A stretch of 64,000 bases of DNA from contig NZ_QRNF01000015.1 in assembly GCF_003474435.1 (NCBI RefSeq), positions 20,921-84,920 of the forward strand, given 5' to 3'. The notes below the pieces were generated by a model that worked only from the letters and a program-made list of their open reading frames with translations, did not search any database and had not been told where the DNA came from. Each line of letters opens with the position of its first letter. The first letter of the stretch is position 1. This document shows, in pieces, positions 23,872-34,151 of this stretch. This DNA is from Ruminococcus sp. AF46-10NS (GTDB lineage Bacteria > Bacillota > Clostridia > Lachnospirales > Lachnospiraceae). A program made the translations under genes and the position numbers.

Positions 23872-25230
23872 ATGGGAACTAATGAAAAAGATATGACTGC
23901 CGGATCTCCCGGAAAACTGATCATAACTTTTGCCATACCAATGATGCTTGGAAATATTTTTCAGCAGTTTTATACAATGGCAGACACCATGATCGTCGGA
24001 CAAGTGGTAGGAGTTAAGGCACTGGCGGCAGTAGGTGCCGGTGATTGGCTGGTATGGCTGGTGTTGGGGATCATGACAGGTATCACACAGGGTTTTTCTA
24101 TTCTTGTATCTCAGTATTATGGAGCAAGGGAAAAGGAAAATCTGAAATGTGCAGTAGCGAAAAGCTATATCATGACAGCATTACTGTCTGTGGTCGTACT
24201 CGCAGTAAGTGAAGGTACAGTTTATCATGTTCTTTTATTTTTACAGACACCGGATAATGTCATTGATCTGACAATGCTATATTTGCGGCTGATCTTTGCA
24301 GGAATCCCGATCATAGCTGCTTATAATATATTTGCAGCGATCCTTCGGGCACTTGGAAACAGCAGATCTCCGTTGATCGCAATGACAGTGGCAGCAGTGA
24401 TCAATGTGGGACTGGATCTGTTATTTGTGGCGGTTTTTGGCTGGGGTATAGTCGGAGCAGCAGTGGCAACCGTTATCGCACAGGGATTTTCAGCCTTGTA
24501 CTGTTTGATCGTATTACGTAAAATTCCGGATATCCGCCTGGAAAAGAAGGATTTTTACAGGCAGCCTTCTATGAGCCTGCGGCTTTTGGAACTGGCGGTT
24601 CCTCTTGCGATACAGAATGTGATCATCTCCGTGGGAGGACTTGTGGTACAGTATGTGATCAATGGATTTGGTTTTCTGTTTGTGGCGGGATTTACGGCAT
24701 CGAACAAGCTGTATGGGGTTTTGGAGATGGCTGCCGTTTCATATGGATATGCTATTACAACCTATGTAGGCCAGAATCTTGGTGCAAAGAAATATCAGAG
24801 GATTCGAAAAGGCGTGCGCAGCGGCACTTATATGGCAGTGCTCACTTCGGCTTTCATTTCCGGCATGATGGTACTGTTTGGACGTAATGTACTGTCCCTG
24901 TTTGTATCCGGTGAACCGGATCAGACCCGACAGGTATTGGATATAGCATATAAGTATTTGTTTATTATGGCTGTCTTTTTGTGGGTGCTGTATCTGCTGT
25001 ATGTGTATCGTTCTGCTATCCAGGGCCTGGGTAATACTTTGATTCCGCTTGCCAGCGGCATTGCAGAATTTATAATGCGTGTCAGTGTTGCGCTGCTACT
25101 GCCAAAACTGATTGGTGAAGATGGAATATACTATGCAGAGATCTGTGCATGGAGCAGCGCAGCTGTTTTATTATTCGTAAGTTATATGATCATTATACGG
25201 AAATATAAAGAAGTCACTGTTCATACATAA
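23872..25230 (+). CDS. MATE-family efflux transporter
   Basis: 452 residues, twelve predicted membrane helices in two homologous halves, with family strings: GSPGKLIITFAIPMMLGNIF, YTMADTMIVGQVVG, GITQGFSILVSQYYGA and, in the second half, YGYAITTYVGQNLGAKKYQR. Exports organic cations or drugs against Na+ or H+. It has its own AGGAG site and stands between the GntR operon and the cobalamin riboswitch; no regulatory link to either is seen. A second MATE gene lies at 43017 on the other strand. Confidence 0.92.
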   Translation: MGTNEKDMTAGSPGKLIITFAIPMMLGNIFQQFYTMADTMIVGQVVGVKALAAVGAGDWLVWLVLGIMTGITQGFSILVSQYYGAREKENLKCAVAKSYIMTALLSVVVLAVSEGTVYHVLLFLQTPDNVIDLTMLYLRLIFAGIPIIAAYNIFAAILRALGNSRSPLIAMTVAAVINVGLDLLFVAVFGWGIVGAAVATVIAQGFSALYCLIVLRKIPDIRLEKKDFYRQPSMSLRLLELAVPLAIQNVIISVGGLVVQYVINGFGFLFVAGFTASNKLYGVLEMAAVSYGYAITTYVGQNLGAKKYQRIRKGVRSGTYMAVLTSAFISGMMVLFGRNVLSLFVSGEPDQTRQVLDIAYKYLFIMAVFLWVLYLLYVYRSAIQGLGNTLIPLASGIAEFIMRVSVALLLPKLIGEDGIYYAEICAWSSAAVLLFVSYMIIIRKYKEVTVHT

Positions 25231-25389
25231 TGTCATTTACTTGAGGATCTATAATGATATACAGGCGGAAAATATCCGGGTTTTAATATGAAATGTTCAG
25301 ATATTTCATATTTGACAGAAAAACTATTTATATAAAAAGAAAAGTATGATATTATGTACTTATTCGTTGCAACTATGAAAATTGAATAG

Positions 25390-25540
25390 TCAGAAGGGTG
25401 TACAAAGTACTTAATAAGGAATCTGGTGAAATGCCAGAACAGCCACCGCTACTGTGACAGGGACGAAAACCAAAATATCACTGGAGAGATCCGGGAAGAT
25501 GGTAAGTAGGAAGAACTGGAGTCAGGAGACTTGCCTTTTT
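25390..25540 (+). promoter_or_regulatory. Cobalamin riboswitch
   Basis: Carries the conserved core of the B12 aptamer in order: GGTG near 25397, AAGGAATCTGGTGAAATGCC, the B12-box region CAGCCACCGCTACTGTGA, then CACTGG, GGGAAGATGG and the closing AGTCAGGAGACTTGCC. A strong intrinsic terminator follows at 25613, so binding of cobalamin should stop transcription of the downstream transporter operon. Boundaries are approximate. Confidence 0.92.
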
Positions 25541-25612
25541 GATAGAAGAATTCTGATTCGGATGGGATACAGAAGGAATAAGCTCTGCCTGAGGTGGAGG
25601 TTTGTTTTTTGT

Positions 25613-25646
25613 GCTGATATGATGCTGGATCATATCAGCTTTTTTT
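25613..25646 (+). terminator. Riboswitch expression-platform terminator
   Basis: Perfect 11-base stem GCTGATATGAT / ATCATATCAGC with a 5-base loop and seven T residues, between the aptamer and the first transporter gene. Confidence 0.9.
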
Positions 25647-25688
25647 ATTTTAACCGAATAAACAGATGAAAAATGAGGAGAGATGAAG

Positions 25689-26618
25689 ATGGGAAAAGTA
25701 ATTGCAAAGCGTTTTATATTTATGATTCCGGTAGTGCTGGCGGTTACATTTATTATTTTTATGCTGAGTTTTATATCGGCAGGTGATGCTGCCAGAGTGC
25801 TGGCGGAGAAAAAATATGAGCATCCGTCACCGGAGCAGGTAGAAGAAGTACGGCATGAGGAAGGACTGGATCAGCCGGTGCTGGTACAATACGGGAAATG
25901 GCTGGATCAGGCACTTCATGGCGATTTTGGAAAATCATATTCTACCAGAAAACCGGCTTTTGAGGAATTAAAAAGATATTTTCCACAGACATTTAAACTG
26001 GCAGTTACTTCGTTTTTATTGTTGATGATCGTATCAGTCCCTCTCGGGATTTTGTCGGCAATTTATGAAAACAGAGTTCTGGATAAAGTCATTCGCATTT
26101 TGTCGTCCCTCAGTGTATCTATGCCGTCTTTCTGGATCGGTCTGATGCTGCTCTATATATTTGGAGTAAAGCTAAAAGTGATTTCCGTGATCGGAGGAGA
26201 TGCCGGAGGCATCCCGATTCTTGCGGCATTTGCCATGGATATCAGTTTCTTTGGAATTATGACGAGATTGATCCGTACCAATATGATACAGGTGCTGAAG
26301 CAGGATTACATACGTGCCAGCAGAGCTAAGGGATTGTCATCTGTAAATGTAATTTTGCGTCATGGTCTGAAAAATATTCTGATTCCTGTGCTGACACGTC
26401 TGGTATCAATTGTGATCGGTTTTTTCTGTGGCTCAGCTGTGATAGAAAGTATTTTTTCAATTCAGGGAATCGGAAATCTGGCATTGAAATCCGTGATCTC
26501 AAAAGACACTCCGGTGCTGCAATGCTTTATCTTTATTCTGGCTGTTGGCATTGTAGTATTAAATTTTCTTGTGGATATCGCCTATTCTGCGATTGACCGG
26601 CGAATCCAGTTAAAGTAA
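25689..26618 (+). CDS. NikB/DppB-type ABC transporter permease
   Basis: 309 residues. An N-terminal helix anchor (KRFIFMIPVVLAVTFIIFML) precedes an extracytoplasmic segment and five further helices; the EAA loop is DYIRASRAKGLSSVNVILRHGLKN (residues about 205-228). This is the first permease of peptide/nickel transporters. First gene behind the cobalamin riboswitch, hence predicted to be shut off by B12. GAGGAG at 25675-25680 fits the second of two neighbouring ATGs. The binding protein of the operon resembles NikA, so cobalt or nickel is the likeliest cargo. Confidence 0.92.
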   Translation: MGKVIAKRFIFMIPVVLAVTFIIFMLSFISAGDAARVLAEKKYEHPSPEQVEEVRHEEGLDQPVLVQYGKWLDQALHGDFGKSYSTRKPAFEELKRYFPQTFKLAVTSFLLLMIVSVPLGILSAIYENRVLDKVIRILSSLSVSMPSFWIGLMLLYIFGVKLKVISVIGGDAGGIPILAAFAMDISFFGIMTRLIRTNMIQVLKQDYIRASRAKGLSSVNVILRHGLKNILIPVLTRLVSIVIGFFCGSAVIESIFSIQGIGNLALKSVISKDTPVLQCFIFILAVGIVVLNFLVDIAYSAIDRRIQLK

Positions 26619-26633
26619 AGGAGAGATCATAGA

Positions 26634-27497
26634 ATGGGAAGCAGAAGAAAGCAGAAAACAGAAAAAAGCATGATCCAGAATCTGTACTGGAAACAGGTAT
26701 TCCGGTCACCGAAAACAAAAATAGGATTGATGGTGGTCATAATTTTTGCATTGGCAGCTATTTTTGCACCTGTACTGGCGCCGCATGATCCACTGCTTGT
26801 GGATGTTTCGATAAAATTAAAGAATCCGTCGGCGGCATATCCTTTAGGTACTGATCAGCTGGGACGATGTATTTTATCAAGACTTCTCTGGGGCAGCCGG
26901 TATTCACTGAGCTATAGCTTTACGGTGCTTCTGATCACCGTATGTGTCGGGGTGCCGATCGGACTGTTTGCCGGATATGTAGGTGGAAAAATCGATTCCA
27001 TAATTATGAGGATCATTGATGTATTTATGGCTATGCCGGTCTTTATTGTGGCACTTGCCATTGCAGGAACCGTAGGAGCCAGCGGCGCTCATCTGATTCT
27101 GTCCTTATCGGTCGTATCCTGGGCAGAATATGCAAGGCTTGCCCGAGCATTGACACTTCAGGAAAAAAATAAAAATTATATGACCGCACTAAAAGCCGGC
27201 GGCTGCGGCCACGCAAGGATCATATTTAGGCATGTATTGAGAAATATCCTGCCATCTGTGATCGCACTGGCAACAATGGAAATCGGTTCGATCATTCTGT
27301 CAATTGCCGGTTTTTCCTTTATCGGTCTTGGTGTGCAGGCACCGACACCGGAATGGGGGATCATGCTCAGTGACAGTAGAAGTTATATTCAGACTTATCC
27401 AAGACTGATGTTTTATCCGGGCATACTGATCATGATCATTGTTCTGGCATTTAATTATCTGGGGGAGGGAATACAGAATGGAACAGCCCAAAAATGA
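26634..27497 (+). CDS. NikC/DppC-type ABC transporter permease
   Basis: 287 residues, starting with the DppC-type amphipathic N-terminus, then FGLMVVIIFALAAIFAPVLA-like first helix, the extracytoplasmic APHDPLLVDV ... YPLGTDQLGRCILSRLLWGS signature and the EAA loop NYMTALKAGGCGHARIIFRH. Heterodimer partner of the preceding permease. Its 3' end overlaps the start of the first ATPase gene by 20 bases. The GTDQLGRD motif common in the family reads GTDQLGRC here. Confidence 0.92.
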   Translation: MGSRRKQKTEKSMIQNLYWKQVFRSPKTKIGLMVVIIFALAAIFAPVLAPHDPLLVDVSIKLKNPSAAYPLGTDQLGRCILSRLLWGSRYSLSYSFTVLLITVCVGVPIGLFAGYVGGKIDSIIMRIIDVFMAMPVFIVALAIAGTVGASGAHLILSLSVVSWAEYARLARALTLQEKNKNYMTALKAGGCGHARIIFRHVLRNILPSVIALATMEIGSIILSIAGFSFIGLGVQAPTPEWGIMLSDSRSYIQTYPRLMFYPGILIMIIVLAFNYLGEGIQNGTAQK

Positions 27498-28269
27498 TGT
27501 TCTAAAGGTAAAAAGACTACATGTGGAGTTTCAGACTTCTCACGGAATGGTTCATGCAGTAAAAGATGTCAGCCTGGAAGTAAAACGCGGAAGGATCCAT
27601 GCTCTGGTGGGAGAAAGTGGAAGCGGCAAGTCAGTTACCTCTCTGACGATCATGAATCTGCTTGCAGGAAACGGAAAGGTGATATCCGGAGATGTGACAC
27701 TGAACGAAAAGAGTCTTCTGAAGTTATCAGGAAAAGAAAAACGACAGTTATACGGAGACAGGATCGGAATGATCTTTCAGGATCCGACCGCTGCTCTTGA
27801 TCCGCTTTTTACAGTTGAACAACTGCTTCTGGAAGGACTGAGAAAACATCGCAGAATGAGCAAAAAACAGGCAAGGGAAGCAGCGTTGGAAAGTCTGCGG
27901 ATGATGAATCTGCGTGATCCGGAAGAACTGATGAAGAAAAAACCTTACGAATTGTCTGGTGGTATGTGCCAACGTGTTATGATCGCCATTGCCATGTCCA
28001 TGAAACCGGATTATCTGATCGCAGATGAGCCGACGACAGCCTTGGATGTAACCGTACAGAAGCAGATCCTGGAAGAAATCTATCAGCTATCCAGGAAAGA
28101 AAATCTGGGTGTGTTATTTATTACGCATGATCTGGGTGTGGTGGCAGAGATCGCAGATGATGTTTCGATCATGAAAGACGGCGAAATAGTGGAAAACGGA
28201 ACGGTTGAAGAGATCTTTTATCATCCGCAGCATTCATATACAAAAAAACTGTTGGATGCAGTTTTATAG
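27478..28269 (+). CDS. NikD/DppD-type ABC transporter ATPase
   Basis: 263 residues. Walker A GESGSGKS, Q-loop MIFQDPTAALDP, signature ELSGGMCQRVMIAIAMS, Walker B YLIADEPTTALDV, H-loop LFITHDLGVVAEIAD. The C-terminus ends soon after HPQHSYTKKLLDAVL, lacking the long Cys-containing oligopeptide extension seen in many DppD proteins. Start at the ATG behind GGGAGG, inside the end of the permease gene; an upstream in-frame start at 27439 is unlikely. Confidence 0.92.
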   Translation: MEQPKNDVLKVKRLHVEFQTSHGMVHAVKDVSLEVKRGRIHALVGESGSGKSVTSLTIMNLLAGNGKVISGDVTLNEKSLLKLSGKEKRQLYGDRIGMIFQDPTAALDPLFTVEQLLLEGLRKHRRMSKKQAREAALESLRMMNLRDPEELMKKKPYELSGGMCQRVMIAIAMSMKPDYLIADEPTTALDVTVQKQILEEIYQLSRKENLGVLFITHDLGVVAEIADDVSIMKDGEIVENGTVEEIFYHPQHSYTKKLLDAVL

Positions 28270-28278
28270 GGGAAAAGT

Positions 28279-29217
28279 ATGAGTACGTTACTAAAGACAG
28301 AACATTTAAAAAAATATTATGGCAAGAAAAAAATTGTGAAGGCAGTGGATGATGTAAGTCTGGAAATCCATGCAGGATCATCCATGGCTCTGATCGGTGA
28401 AAGTGGAAGTGGTAAAACTACATTCGGAAAGCTGATCGCCGGCCTGGAGAAACCTACAGATGGAAAATTCTGGTTTCAGGGACAGGAAATGCAGGATTTG
28501 TCTGAAAAGCAGTTTCGTCCATATCGCAAGAATCTTCAGATGGTCTTTCAAAGCAGTAGCGGGGTATTTGATCCCGGTTATACCATTGGAGAAAATATTT
28601 TGGAAATTTTGAAATTACATGAAAAACTGCAAGAGGGTGAGTATGAAGAGCGAGTAAAGGAGGCTTTGATCCAGACGGGGCTTGATCCGGATATCCGCAA
28701 CCGTTATGTTGGACAGATTTCAGGAGGTCAGTGTCAGAGAGCTAATATTGCGAGAGCATTGGTATTAAGACCGGAGCTTGTGATCTGTGATGAACCGGTA
28801 TCCAGTCTGGATTATTCCATACGAAAGCAGATCCTGCATCTGTTAAATGAGCTGCAGGAAAAATATGAGATGACCTATTTACTGATCACTCACGATCTGT
28901 CCAACGTTCCATATCTCTGCAAAGAGGTGGCTATTATGTATCAGGGACGCGTGGTCGAGTTTATCGATCATACGGACAGCTTAAAGGAGACTGCCGTACA
29001 TCCTTATACAAAAGATCTGTTTGATTCTATTCCGGTAAAAGAACCGAAAATGCGAAGAATCGGATTGCAGGAAAAGAAAATATTTTCAGATACCATTCCG
29101 GAACAGGGCTGCCCATATCAGAACCGGTGCAGAAGATGTACAAATATATGCAGAGAGCATATACCGGAATTGACAGAAATTGAAACAGGACATTTTGCGG
29201 CATGTCATATGCTGTAA
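28279..29217 (+). CDS. NikE/DppF-type ABC transporter ATPase
   Basis: 312 residues. Walker [11 protein letters not shown]-loop [12 protein letters not shown], signature [17 protein letters not shown], Walker [14 protein letters not shown]-loop [14 protein letters not shown]. After the ATPase core comes the oligopeptide/dipeptide C-terminal domain with the cysteines [17 protein letters not shown] ... AACHML, which in this family can hold an iron-sulfur cluster or metal. Follows its partner ATPase by 9 bases in the riboswitch operon. Confidence 0.92.
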
Positions 29218-29246
29218 AATATAAAACAAACAAAGGAGAGGAAGAA

Positions 29247-30815
29247 ATGAAGAAAAGACGTGTAGCAAAACTGATAGCATTGAGCATGGTGGCGGCAACT
29301 TTACTGACAGGTGTCAATGTACAGGCAAAAGAGGAAAAAGTAGTTACGGCAATGACATCCATTGATCTGACTCCTGAACTTTGTGACCCTATAAAAAGTG
29401 GTCCAGACTTTCGTCTTTATGAAATGATCTATGATCCACTGGTGCGTTATGGAGAAAATGGAGAAATCAAACCGGCATTGGCAGAATCTTGGGATATCAG
29501 CGAAGATGGCACAACCTATACGTTCCATTTAAGAAAAGATGTGAAATTCTCGGACGGCACAGAGTTTAATGCAGACAATGTGATGTGGAATTATAACAGA
29601 TGGGTGGAACAGGATGTGATCGGTAACTTTTCAGCCAAACTGGAAAATGTTACAAAGGTAGATGATTATACTGTAGAATTTAAGTTCGCAGAACCATGCT
29701 ATACACTGCTGATCGAATTCAGCTATCCAAGACCATTCCGTTTCACCTGTGAAAGTGCACTGGATGAAGACGGAGAATTTTGTCAGGAAGTGGGTACCGG
29801 AATGTGGATGATCGACAGTTATGAAAGCGGTCAGGAGGTTGTCCTGGTACCAAATCCTAATTATTACGGTGAGAAACCAAATATTGATAAAGTAGTTCTG
29901 AAACAGGTGGTAGACGGTGATGCCAGAGTGATGGCACTTCAGAGTGGAGAGGCAGATCTGAATCTTCAGGATATTCCATCCGAAAGCTTCAGTATTATCC
30001 AGGCAGATAAAAATTTATCGACAGAACAGCAGGTTTCCACACTTTCTTACTATCTGATCGAAAATTATGATACACCGGCGCTTCAGGATATAAACGTACG
30101 TCAGGCACTGAATTATGCAACAAATAAAGAAAGCATTGTAAATGATCTGCTGGATGGTTACGGCAATCCGGCAACCGGACTTATGTCTCCGACAGTTCCT
30201 TATGTAACAGAAGAAAACAGCAAGGGTTATCCATATGATCCGGATAAAGCAAAGGAACTGTTAAAGGAAGCAGGATATGAGGATACAGACGGAGATGGTA
30301 TTGTAGAAAAAGACGGAGAACCACTGAGCCTCAGACTGGTATTCCAGACTGAAGAATATGCTTCCTGGAAGTCACTGTGTGAATACCTGAAATCTGAATA
30401 TGAGAAGGTTGGTGTGGGTGTTGAACTGGTAGAAAAAGAATCTGCAGCTTACTATGATGAAATCTGGAACACCAGAGACTACGATCTGTGCATTTACCGC
30501 AGCTATGAAGACTCCTGGATGCCTCATGGTTTCCTGAAATCAATGTTCTATGCGGAAGATGGAGCAAAGGCAGTAAACTGGTACGATGAGGAGCTGAACA
30601 AAGATCTCGGAGAAGTATTAAAAACACAGGATGAAGAAAAACGTACGGAATTATACGATAAGATCCTTACACGTATCAATGATCAGGCAGTAACAGTGCC
30701 GCTGTATTATCCGAACCGTGATTATATCTATAATAATACCAGACTGACCAATGTAGAGCTTGCACCGACTGCCTATGAAGGCATTAACTGGGCAACACTG
30801 GATGTAGTGGAGTAA
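29247..30815 (+). CDS. NikA-like substrate-binding protein (SBP_bac_5)
   Basis: 522 residues. N-terminal signal peptide [20 protein letters not shown] then TGVNVQA, apparently a type I signal with no lipobox cysteine. The mature protein has the family 5 pattern: [59 protein letters not shown] (the RPFRF segment is typical of nickel-binding NikA relatives), [19 protein letters not shown], and [15 protein letters not shown]. Captures the cargo outside the cell for the four transporter subunits encoded upstream. Start at ATG behind GGAGAGG; an earlier in-frame ATG at 29202 lies inside the previous gene. Confidence 0.9.
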
Positions 30816-30820
30816 AAAAA

Positions 30821-31573
30821 ATGTTTGAAAAAATCGAGAATAAATGGACAGAAGATTCCGGTGATTATGATGATATGATCCAAAAACAATTGAGTAACAA
30901 AAGAACGGTATCTCACTGGACAAAAGAATTGAAAAGACTTCTTGGACCTGAGCCCCTTCGTATTTTAGAAGTGGGCTGCGGCCCGGGTTTTATGAGCATC
31001 ATAGCAGCGCGTCTGGGACATGATGTAAAAGCGATAGATGGTTCATCAGGAATGGTAGAAAAAGCCAGAAGGAATATGCGACAGTATCATCAACAGGTGG
31101 AAATCTGTGAGGAAGATGGTGTAACTTTGCCATTGGAACAGGAACAAAGCTATGATGTGATACTTTCCAGAGATGCGGTGTGGACATTATATGATCCGGA
31201 AAAAGCTTTCAGACGCTGGAAGGCTGTATTAAAACCAGGTGGAAGGATCATTTATTTTGATGGGGACTATCGTACCATCGAATCCACATTAAAAAATAAG
31301 ATCCATATGAAAATTGCTGATTTTCTTATTTATGTTACAGAAAGAAAAACATATGGATCTGACGTGAAGGAAAACAGTGGAATTTATGAAAAGCTGCCAT
31401 TTACATCGCAGAAGCGTCCGGAAGCGGACTTTCAGATATTAAAAAAGGTACGCTTTGCCAGGATCCAGATCAGAGAGAACCGCTGGCTAAACAGACCATG
31501 GACGATGGATTTCTGGAAATACGGATATCAGGGAAAAAAATTTATTGTAGTAGCCACAAAGAAGGAGAAGTGA
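30821..31573 (+). CDS. Class I SAM-dependent methyltransferase (first of two)
   Basis: 250 residues, cytosolic. SAM-binding motif I EVGCGPGFMS (residues about 47-56), acidic end of strand 2 VKAIDGSSGMVEKARRNM, motif II around SYDVILSRDAVWTLYDPEKA, and post-motif LKPGGRIIYFDGDY. The C-terminal half (residues 160-250) has no recognised substrate domain. It starts 5 bases after the binding-protein stop, so it belongs to the riboswitch operon. The next gene is a paralogue with the same WTL-x-DP-x-KA motif. Target unknown; small-molecule or metallophore methylation is a guess from context. Confidence 0.88.
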   Translation: MFEKIENKWTEDSGDYDDMIQKQLSNKRTVSHWTKELKRLLGPEPLRILEVGCGPGFMSIIAARLGHDVKAIDGSSGMVEKARRNMRQYHQQVEICEEDGVTLPLEQEQSYDVILSRDAVWTLYDPEKAFRRWKAVLKPGGRIIYFDGDYRTIESTLKNKIHMKIADFLIYVTERKTYGSDVKENSGIYEKLPFTSQKRPEADFQILKKVRFARIQIRENRWLNRPWTMDFWKYGYQGKKFIVVATKKEK

Positions 31574-31574
31574 C

Positions 31575-32321
31575 ATGCAAAACGATAAGATCAAAGAGTA
31601 CTGGGAAGGAGAAGCTGGCATTTACAGCGAAGGGATCAAGGCAGAATTGAAAAGTGAAACAGCAGAAAACTGGAAGAATCTGATTCTGGAGTATGCGCCG
31701 GAAAAAGAACATCTGGAAGTACTGGATGTAGGCTGCGGGCCGGGATTTTTTGAAATTATGCTGGGAAAAGAAGGACATCATGTGACCGGGATCGATATTA
31801 CTGAAAATATGATCCATGAAGCAAAGGAAAATGTAAAGGCAGCAGGTTTATCCGCAGATCTGATGACTATGGACTGCCACAATCTGAATTTCCCGGATGA
31901 GACATTTGATATGATTATCTGCAGAAATATCACATGGACGCTGGATGATCCACAGAAGGCTTACAAGGAGTGGCTGCGTGTACTGAAAAAAGGCGGACGC
32001 CTTTTGGTATCGGACGCCTGCTGGTATCTGCATCTTTATGATGAAGAAAAGAAAAAGATTTACGAGGCACATGATGCTGCCATGTGGGAAAAATACGGAA
32101 GAGGTATCCATGCTCATGAAGATGCGGAAACAGGGAAAGAGCTCAGCAGTAAGCTGTTTATGAGTGATAAAAAGCGCCCGGCATGGGATCTGGATCACAT
32201 GATGGAGATCGGCTTTTCCAAAGTGTTTGCCCTGAAGGACATCAGTGATATTTCCAGAACTTCCATGGATCGTGAGCTGAATAAGCTGACACCTCAGTTT
32301 TTAGTGGGTGGAGAAAAATAA
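31575..32321 (+). CDS. Class I SAM-dependent methyltransferase (second of two)
   Basis: 248 residues starting with MQNDKIKEYWEGEAGIYSEG, a layout common to UbiE/small-molecule methyltransferases. Motif I DVGCGPGFFE, strand 2 end VTGIDITENMIHEAKENV, DMIICRNITWTLDDPQKAYKEW and LKKGGRLLVSDACWY. Begins one base after the stop of the first methyltransferase. The paralogy and tight spacing suggest a duplication and either a heterodimer or two successive methylations. Last gene of the cobalamin-controlled operon. Confidence 0.88.
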   Translation: MQNDKIKEYWEGEAGIYSEGIKAELKSETAENWKNLILEYAPEKEHLEVLDVGCGPGFFEIMLGKEGHHVTGIDITENMIHEAKENVKAAGLSADLMTMDCHNLNFPDETFDMIICRNITWTLDDPQKAYKEWLRVLKKGGRLLVSDACWYLHLYDEEKKKIYEAHDAAMWEKYGRGIHAHEDAETGKELSSKLFMSDKKRPAWDLDHMMEIGFSKVFALKDISDISRTSMDRELNKLTPQFLVGGEK

Positions 32322-33275: not shown

Positions 33276-34151
33276 ATGAAAATTGCAGCAACATACGATA
33301 ATGGAAACATTTTTCAGCACTTTGGAAAAACAGAGTTTTTCAAGGTATATGAGGTGGAGGATAACAAGGTTATTTCCAGTGAAGTGATCAGCTCCAATGG
33401 CACCGGACATGGTGCACTTGCAGGACTTCTTGCGGATCAGGGTATCAGTGTTCTGATCTGTGGTGGAATCGGCGGCGGCGCTCAGACAGCACTTGCTGAG
33501 GCTGGTGTTGAGTTATGTTCCGGAGCACAGGGTGACGTAGATGCAGCTGTGGATGCTTATCTGAAGGGCGAGCTGGTATCCACAGGTGTGAATTGTGATC
33601 ATCACCATCATGAGGATGGACATTCCTGCGGAAGCCATGAGGATGGACACTCCTGCGGCGGCCATGAGGAAGGACATTCCTGTGGAAACTGTGGCGGCGG
33701 ATGTGGTTCCCAGCCGGCTATTACAGGTCCTAACGTTGGAAAAACCTGCCGTACCCATTACAGAGGAACTTTTAATGATGGAACACAGTTCGATTCTTCT
33801 TATGACCGTGGCGAGCCACTGGAATTCATCTGCGGAGCAGGACAGATGATCAAAGGCTTTGATGCGGCAGTTGCAAATATGGAGGTTGGTCAGGTGGTAG
33901 ATGTTCATCTGATGCCGGAAGAAGCTTACGGAATGCCGGATCCGAGCGCAATTTTTACACTTGAGATTGAACAGCTTCCGGGTGCTGAGGATCTTACTGT
34001 AGGACAGCAGGTATACCTCTCCAATCAGTATGGTCAGCCGTTCCCGGTTAAAGTTAACGCAAAAGATGAAAAAACCATTACTTTCGATGCTAATCATGAG
34101 ATGGCAGGTAAAGAGCTGAATTTCAGAATTGAATTAGTAGAAGTGAAATAA
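33276..34151 (+). CDS. NifX/NifB-like domain fused through a His/Cys linker to an SlyD-type FKBP
   Basis: 291 residues in three parts. Residues 1-103 are a dinitrogenase iron-molybdenum cofactor (NifX/NafY/NifB-tail) domain: MKIAATYDNGNIFQHFGKTE, then GISVLICGGIGGGAQTALAE. Residues 107-143 are a metal-binding linker with nine His and six Cys arranged in three HSCG-containing repeats (EDGHSCGSH, EDGHSCGGH, EEGHSCGNC). Residues 152-291 are an FKBP peptidyl-prolyl isomerase of the SlyD type (TFNDGTQFDSSYDRGEPLEF, PEEAYGMPDPS) with its inserted chaperone flap. SlyD handles nickel in other bacteria, so a metal-delivery chaperone is the natural reading. Own promoter and terminator. Confidence 0.9.
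   Translation: MKIAATYDNGNIFQHFGKTEFFKVYEVEDNKVISSEVISSNGTGHGALAGLLADQGISVLICGGIGGGAQTALAEAGVELCSGAQGDVDAAVDAYLKGELVSTGVNCDHHHHEDGHSCGSHEDGHSCGGHEEGHSCGNCGGGCGSQPAITGPNVGKTCRTHYRGTFNDGTQFDSSYDRGEPLEFICGAGQMIKGFDAAVANMEVGQVVDVHLMPEEAYGMPDPSAIFTLEIEQLPGAEDLTVGQQVYLSNQYGQPFPVKVNAKDEKTITFDANHEMAGKELNFRIELVEVK

Follow-up and report, generated by a model that had tools for sequence, protein, structure and literature searches.

A cobalamin riboswitch operon encoding a Nik-type importer and two linked methyltransferases with a possible role in the handling of a metal chelate

Results

The stretch under study, hereafter the window, comprises 64,000 nucleotides of Ruminococcus sp. AF46-10NS (contig NZ_QRNF01000015.1, positions 20,921 to 84,920) and contains a cobalamin riboswitch followed by the genes of a complete Nik-type ATP-binding cassette (ABC) importer and of two class I S-adenosylmethionine (SAM) methyltransferases, MT1 and MT2. 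Relatives of these methyltransferases were repeatedly found beside nickel- and cobalt-type importers in bacteria and archaea. We tentatively propose, with somewhat less than even confidence, that the operon encodes an importer for a cobalt chelate that is repressed by cobamides, and that MT1 and MT2 would methylate the ligand of this chelate inside the cell.

Riboswitch and operon

The RF00174 profile matched positions 25379-25552 of the plus strand over its full length (model positions 1-189 of 189) with 105.7 bits (gathering score 31.5; E = 2e-25), and this was the sole match at the gathering score across the window. The B12 aptamer core box AGTCAGGAGACTTGCC was found within the riboswitch. 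A terminator-like hairpin follows at 25613-25639 (plus strand), with a perfect stem of 11 base pairs, a 5-nucleotide loop and a T7 tail (-16.1 kcal/mol, z -4.3), and is the predicted intrinsic terminator of the expression platform.

Seven genes lie downstream on the same strand in the order NikB-NikC-NikD-NikE-NikA-MT1-MT2, the whole region spanning 25379-32321, and all five NikABCDE components are present within this one operon. The permeases are encoded at 25683-26618 (NikB/Opp-type; Opp2B 299.8 bits, cut-off 350; Opp1B 275.9; NikB TIGR02789 267.7) and at 26634-27497 (NikC-type; NikC TIGR02790 329.8 bits, cut-off 358), the latter passing the cut-off of the Opp2C nickel permease (303.5 against 300). 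The ATPases are encoded at about 27478-28269 (NikD-type; scanned from 27484, TIGR02770 285.8 bits, cut-off 318.7) and 28279-29217 (NikE/DppF-type; PRK11308 266.9 bits and NikE TIGR02769 240.2, neither reaching its cut-off), the NikA-like binding protein at 29247-30815, MT1 at 30821-31573 and MT2 at 31575-32321. The starts of NikD and NikA were chosen within longer open reading frames; the NikA frame can open at 29202, and a ribosome-binding site and a signal peptide, both recognized by eye, favour 29247.

The original prediction had described a B12 aptamer, a perfect terminator and seven tightly packed genes in one direction, namely two permeases, two ATPases, a NikA-like protein and two paralogous methyltransferases one base apart. 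All of this was confirmed, except that the aptamer, which had been placed from 25390 onwards, starts 11 nucleotides before that position.

The binding protein

Among the NCBIfam models the binding protein scored first with NikA (TIGR02294, 363.2 bits, cut-off 393), followed by CntA (NF047575, 244.1, cut-off 800), Opp5A (NF045468, 225.9, cut-off 600), Opp4A (183), DppA (166), GsiB (156) and OppA (117), none of these models reaching a curated cut-off. The score lies far over those of the Dpp, Gsi and Opp models, in agreement with the NikA affinity that had been predicted, and the closest PDB structure was NikA (1uiu, E = 2e-68). NikA Arg137 corresponds to R162, which is invariant among 12 aligned sequences. 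In the pairwise alignment with 1uiu, which is uncertain near gaps, His416 and Arg97 stand opposite gaps, Trp100 stands opposite Ile, and the positions of Trp398 and Tyr402 hold Tyr and Trp respectively. His416 is a nickel ligand of NikA and Arg137 its carboxylate anchor, according to the available part of a 2024 study (PMC11091072). Since the score falls below the cut-off and His416 is not kept, the sequence places the window protein outside NikA proper, as a member of the NikA clade with a changed pocket. Its apparent signal peptide (29247-29340) carries no lipobox cysteine as judged by eye, an unusual feature for a Gram-positive ABC binding protein, while the relative at locus L004 and others probably possess a lipobox.

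The methyltransferases

MT1 and MT2 were assigned to the class I SAM methyltransferases by their matches to Methyltransf_11 (73.7 and 91.7 bits), the SAM motif G-x-G-P-G and the class I fold, the AlphaFold2 models having a predicted local distance difference test (pLDDT) value of 87.8 and 92.9 respectively. The two proteins share 30% identity over 217 amino acids (E = 5e-30). Their best NCBIfam families were the corrinoid protein-associated methyltransferase CpaM (NF043040; 63.8 bits for MT1 and 69.6 for MT2, cut-off 180) and DVU_1556 (NF045667), both far under their curated cut-offs.

In a tree of 122 methyltransferase domains, whose bootstrap had not fully converged, MT1 and MT2 fell into separate clades of 15 rows each (support 100/100 and 96/93). 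The two methyltransferases or fusion halves of loci with Opp5A-like importers fell mostly into two further clades (19 rows, 99/98; 15 rows, 100/99), thus indicating that pairs of unlike methyltransferases have been kept in more than one lineage. The fusions consist of two methyltransferases (about 490-520 amino acids), of a deacylase-type AstE domain and one methyltransferase (about 570 amino acids), or of AstE between two methyltransferases (813 and 856 amino acids). The last arrangement was seen as single proteins at L080 (6415-8856) and L089 (803-3373), beside LysR and Nik/Dpp-type importer genes; the middle part matches AstE/aspartoacylase in L080 and, by BLAST, in L089.

Linkage of the methyltransferases to the importer

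An alignment of MT1 was scanned against genome contigs, which returned 387 confirmed places; the best 80 were kept (79 distinct), and the counts given here are therefore counts of best hits. Together with 20 loci hand-picked from hits in 200 Lachnospiraceae genomes, some of them for a riboswitch or NikA on the same contig, they make up 99 methyltransferase loci, a number that retains contig ends as well as L081, which apparently repeats L001 (near-identical genes). A Nik/Opp permease and a binding protein were found within 9 kb at 63 of the 99 loci (48/79 from the MT1 scan and 15/20 of the others), compared with 0/20 control windows, the controls being set at round-number positions in five Lachnospiraceae genomes and the methyltransferase loci spanning many phyla. 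AstE-type genes or domains occurred at seven of the 99 loci and at none of the 20 controls. The partner binding proteins were of the window type or of other kinds: the one at L082 exceeds the NikA cut-off (481 bits), while those at L084 (362 bits) and L089 (337 bits) are nearest to Opp5A, whose cut-off of 600 was not reached.

The 25 loci of the MT1 clade, the window included, are not independent, as the window and L002 are almost the same and ten of them belong to Paenibacillus or Bacillus; MT2 was present in 21, a binding protein of the window type in 21, at least two permeases in 23 and all of these together in 20. The complete loci came from Lachnospiraceae, one Clostridiales genome, Treponema, Methanosarcina and Paenibacillus/Bacillus, and the gene order varied (Nik-MT1-MT2, MT2-Nik-MT1 or MT1-MT2-Nik). 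The five exceptions were two short contigs (L006 and L013), a locus with a divergent Nik importer (L008), one beside a FecCD-type importer (L012), and L018. Since MT1, MT2 and the importer stand together in varying order at 20 of these 25 loci, the gene neighbourhoods indicate that the association is not accidental. Over 11 non-redundant loci the sequence identities of the components were correlated (MT1-MT2, r = 0.80; MT1-binding protein, 0.89; MT2-binding protein, 0.86; species relatedness uncontrolled), as expected for a set that is inherited or transferred together.

A palindrome shared with metal transport operons

At many other loci a palindrome, ATCCCC-N2-4-GGGG-CTT, occurs about 40-160 nucleotides before methyltransferase, Nik, AstE or ABC genes. 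Its exact form returned 63 sites in 39 of the 200 Lachnospiraceae genomes, compared with 8 for the reversed control, and 14 sites lay within 3 kb of a methyltransferase, at 12 of the 36 methyltransferase loci of these genomes, where about 0.03 sites were expected. Sixteen palindrome regions were fetched and 15 were read, L203 falling below the length limit; about 31 of the 63 sites lie outside the set inspected in all. In seven of the 15 the site preceded NikB (L192, L202), a Dpp-type binding protein (L195, L197) or CbiM (L193, L200), or lay at AstE and methyltransferase genes (L207, one of the 14 sites); in the other eight regions no reference protein was found behind the site. A CbiM-type gene also follows the palindrome at L154, where it exceeds the CbiM cut-off, and at L092, where it does not, giving four genomes in all.

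In related loci of low guanine-cytosine content, which amount to 1.15 Mb, the loose form CCCC-N1-5-GGGG was counted 57 times, 13 of these in an array resembling clustered regularly interspaced short palindromic repeats (CRISPR), and twice in 0.32 Mb of controls. A weaker result was obtained in 10 genomes with a looser version of the palindrome pattern (14 matches in 6 genomes, against 6 in 2 for the reversed control); eight of the 14 matches lay at methyltransferase or Nik-type loci and one before CbiM. Palindrome positions include L014 3679, L043 9918, L086 13183, L092 1648 and 9625, L105 8230, L154 4984, L193 6060 and L200 4496; the window operon does not carry the palindrome. Because methyltransferase, Nik and CbiM-type operons have this element in common, it is a candidate nickel/cobalt operator, and the methyltransferase family appears to belong to a common nickel/cobalt regulon. 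NikR was rejected as the regulator, as the NikR consensus sequences in the available part of PMC545781 differ from the palindrome. LysR, AraC or Btr-type genes were present beside some of the palindrome or methyltransferase loci only.

Which metal is imported

The closest of the fetched loci, L002, belongs to Blautia massiliensis GD8, and its Nik proteins are 99-100% identical to those of the window. The record of this strain (G584) contains four RF00174 matches, one before the window-type operon, one before an Opp5A-like Nik operon (L164) with an AstE-type gene just upstream, and one before the gene of a secreted CbiK-like protein, behind which lie further genes, an ABC ATPase gene among them. 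CbiD was present in the record, whereas CbiM and NiCoT returned no match, the completeness of the record being unstated and the search limited to these two cobalt transporter families. Since a genome with a nearly identical locus has CbiD without a detected CbiM or NiCoT, cobalt is the likely metal of the window importer: a corrin builder lacking both transporters would need another route for cobalt, and the B12-switched Nik operons are therefore candidates. Of the two cargoes suggested by the original prediction, cobalt was thus favoured, while a corrinoid precursor found no support.

Elsewhere in the family, a fusion of HemC with the cobaltochelatase CbiK closes the methyltransferase-Nik gene run of L072. 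CbiK-like proteins with signal peptides were also observed directly behind B12 riboswitches at L165 (7158-8450) and L092 (9814-11010). The CbiK family search (119 of 200 genomes) returned frames of very different length, many long Lachnospiraceae frames among them, and was not used for counts.

Neighbouring genes and other observations

Directly upstream of the riboswitch operon, at 23872-25230 on the plus strand, lies a MATE exporter gene (TIGR00797, 221.6 bits, cut-off 147.4), with related genes at L002, L003, L005 and L063; it is a possible exporter of the chelator. About 1 kb past the operon, positions 33276-34151 encode a protein in which a His/Cys-rich linker stands between a NifX/FeMo-co-type domain and an FKBP domain, a SlyD-like layout; it is a possible metal chaperone. 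Two Paenibacillus methyltransferase-Nik loci (L016 and L020) also contain genes for ArsB arsenite efflux, a Btr-type AraC regulator and a FhuD-type binding protein. At L099 (1-930) a CRISPR-like array of 13 repeats was noted, which is unrelated to the linkage described above.

Discussion

According to the mechanism that we propose, scarcity of B12 would lead the riboswitch to permit reading of the operon, and the secreted NikA-like protein would bind metal held by a small organic ligand. NikBCDE would bring the whole metal-ligand complex into the cell, where MT1 and MT2 would methylate the ligand. This step would most likely serve to process the chelate: methylation of donor groups would weaken it, freeing cobalt for corrin synthesis and keeping the ligand from rebinding metal, and an exporter (MATE, or an ABC pair in some relatives) may then remove the methylated product. 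That the methyltransferases would act on the chelator or its cargo is suggested by the repeated linkage, the fusions and the shared operator sites. Import of the whole chelate followed by modification of its ligand is preferred for four reasons. The methyltransferases keep company with the importer and not with a synthesis cluster, some lineages have them fused to a deacylase-type domain, the palindrome of metal transport operons precedes many of them, and the gene run of L072 ends in the HemC-CbiK fusion. A wider form of the proposal extends it to bacteria and archaea in general: chelates would enter by NikA-type ABC importers, the metal would be freed by methylation of the ligand and in some lineages also by AstE-type cutting, a step so far undescribed, and the genes would form a nickel/cobalt regulon under their own operator or a B12 riboswitch. 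In this breadth we consider the proposal possible, though rather unlikely.

Several observations weigh against the proposed mechanism. The structures nearest to MT1 and MT2 are a broad mix of N-, O-, C- and S-methyltransferases and do not point to a substrate. A Nik-type pair was not nearby at 36 of the 99 methyltransferase loci, some of which are on short contigs; MT2 occurs without MT1 at three Paenibacillus loci (L038, L059 and L067); and no methyltransferase stands beside the B12-switched Nik operons of L093, L094, L095 and L164, the last being the second operon of B. massiliensis. Methyltransferase relatives (E <= 1e-30) were found in 30 of the 200 Lachnospiraceae genomes, but G149 alone has a match that scores like an MT1 orthologue (411 bits), which shows that the window-type set is patchy. 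A reverse search with an alignment of the binding protein against 391 genomes of the class returned six places in five genomes (E <= 1e-100). Four were of the window type by best match: an MT2-type gene adjoined three of them (two of the genomes being of one genus), MT1 was absent from all four of the fetched stretches, and the stretch of G566 held no methyltransferase, its contig ending 0.9 kb downstream. The MT2-type enzyme thus seems to be the more constant partner. The two remaining places were CntA/NikA-like, one (G459) with a methyltransferase and an ABC exporter pair and the other (G441) with an AstE-type gene. The idea that both methyltransferases stay with the transporter therefore held in part, as the linkage reaches far beyond the Lachnospiraceae, but the pair is not obligatory, MT1 is not universal and several B12-switched Nik operons have no adjacent methyltransferases.

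The evidence on regulation and on the metal is also mixed. A scan of 17 related loci detected RF00174 in six (L001-L006, with the riboswitch of L006 lying between MT1 and NikB). It was also detected at 5 of 10 further loci (L092-L095 and L102), some of these ten having been picked for a riboswitch hit, and at 0 of 8 in another set. The metal may be nickel elsewhere in the family. CbiK had been considered as proof of a cobalt operon at L092 and was dropped: a signal peptide on the protein and a terminator-like hairpin between its gene and those of the methyltransferases were both recognized by eye, so that the link amounts to adjacency.

The main rival explanation is metallophore synthesis, in which MT1 and MT2 would make or finish a cobaltophore from a common metabolite, MATE or ABC proteins would export it and NikABCDE would reimport the loaded form, in the manner of the staphylopine system. 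Exporters, sought by BLAST to few reference proteins, would suit such a cycle, as MATE genes occurred at 9 and exporter-fold ABC genes at 12 of the 99 loci, compared with 2 and 0 of the 20 controls, and as close gene runs were seen at L082 (NikABCDE-MATE-MT-ABC-ABC) and L001 (NikBCDEA-MT1-MT2-ABC-ABC). AraC- or Btr-type regulators beside some loci likewise recall siderophore regulators. However, most loci showed no exporter in this search, none of the seven operon genes encodes a scaffold-forming enzyme, and the AstE-type fusions point to breakdown rather than synthesis, so that we regard this explanation as unlikely.

A third explanation, which we consider improbable, is that the methyltransferases are mere passengers or serve some general function unconnected to a metal chelate, such as detoxifying a co-imported compound. 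Class I methyltransferases are indeed common and their annotation generic, and the loci without a Nik-type pair and the Nik operons without methyltransferases would be expected in this case. On the other hand, 63 of the 99 loci against no control window have the pair nearby, the association is kept across bacteria and archaea despite changes in gene order, and the putative operator occurs at 12 of 36 methyltransferase loci.

An importer of corrinoids or corrin precursors that the methyltransferases would modify could be suggested by the B12 riboswitch and by the similarity to CpaM, which stays below the cut-off, but we consider it very improbable. The corrin-ring methylases belong to a different methyltransferase class, and in Methanosarcina, Treponema and Paenibacillus orthologues of MT1 and MT2 stand beside importers for which RF00174 gave no match. 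In addition, more distant relatives have operator sites in common with CbiM-type metal transporters, and B. massiliensis has a separate B12-switched run with the secreted CbiK-like protein and ABC ATPase. Finally, a plain oligopeptide importer mistaken for a metal importer, which the shared ABC family and the lack of conservation of NikA His416, Arg97 and Trp100 would allow, is hardly credible given the NikA score of 363 bits against 166, 156 and 117 for DppA, GsiB and OppA, the B12 riboswitch, and the failure to find CbiM or NiCoT in B. massiliensis.

The linkage of the methyltransferases to importers, in archaea as well as in bacteria, is suggestive of a chemical modification of the metal-carrying chelator by the cell. 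As far as the available part of the 2024 NikA study goes, no bacterial nickelophore dedicated to NikABCDE is known and the fate of the aspergillomarasmine complex after binding to NikA is unclear (PMC11091072). A conserved pair of possible ligand-modifying enzymes would open both questions to genetic study, not only in common gut bacteria but also in Methanosarcina, for which large nickel- and cobalt-dependent proteomes are described in the accessible part of PMC2667541.

The same source reports a B12 riboswitch before NikABCDE in Clostridium tetani and Desulfitobacterium hafniense, and excepts these from the nickel-specific NikA proteins. The window operon shares with them the Nik-type importer under a cobalamin riboswitch but has two methyltransferases, which the consulted part of PMC2667541 does not mention for either. 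The pairing of B12 riboswitch and Nik importer is thus known, while the methyltransferase part is undescribed in the literature searched, and the methyltransferase family as a whole is widely distributed. No methyltransferases of this kind were found with Nik-type importers in that literature, which included few subscription papers, just as the original prediction knew of no named system that explains the pair. The E. coli nickel-histidine importer NikABCDE resembles the window system in gene set, in the best-scoring family of the binding protein and in Arg137, and differs in that the window protein lies below the NikA cut-off and lacks the nickel ligand His416; to our knowledge the E. coli nik operon contains no methyltransferases.

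The staphylopine system, in which CntKLM carry out synthesis, CntE export and CntABCDF import, pairs a metal-chelate importer belonging to the same ABC family with neighbouring genes for small-molecule enzymes. The window protein reaches 244 of 800 bits with the CntA model, class I methyltransferases take the place of the synthesis enzymes, and no Cnt-type synthesis gene was matched among the seven operon genes, to which the search was confined. Opp5A/SaNikA of S. aureus represents another NikA clade, with which the window protein scores only 226 of 600 bits, while the Lachnospiraceae proteins nearest to it adjoin relatives of MT1 and MT2. The CpaM and DVU_1556 families occur in a gene context unlike that of the window operon. 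Methylation-driven release of the metal would be a counterpart to the siderophore esterases and reductases.

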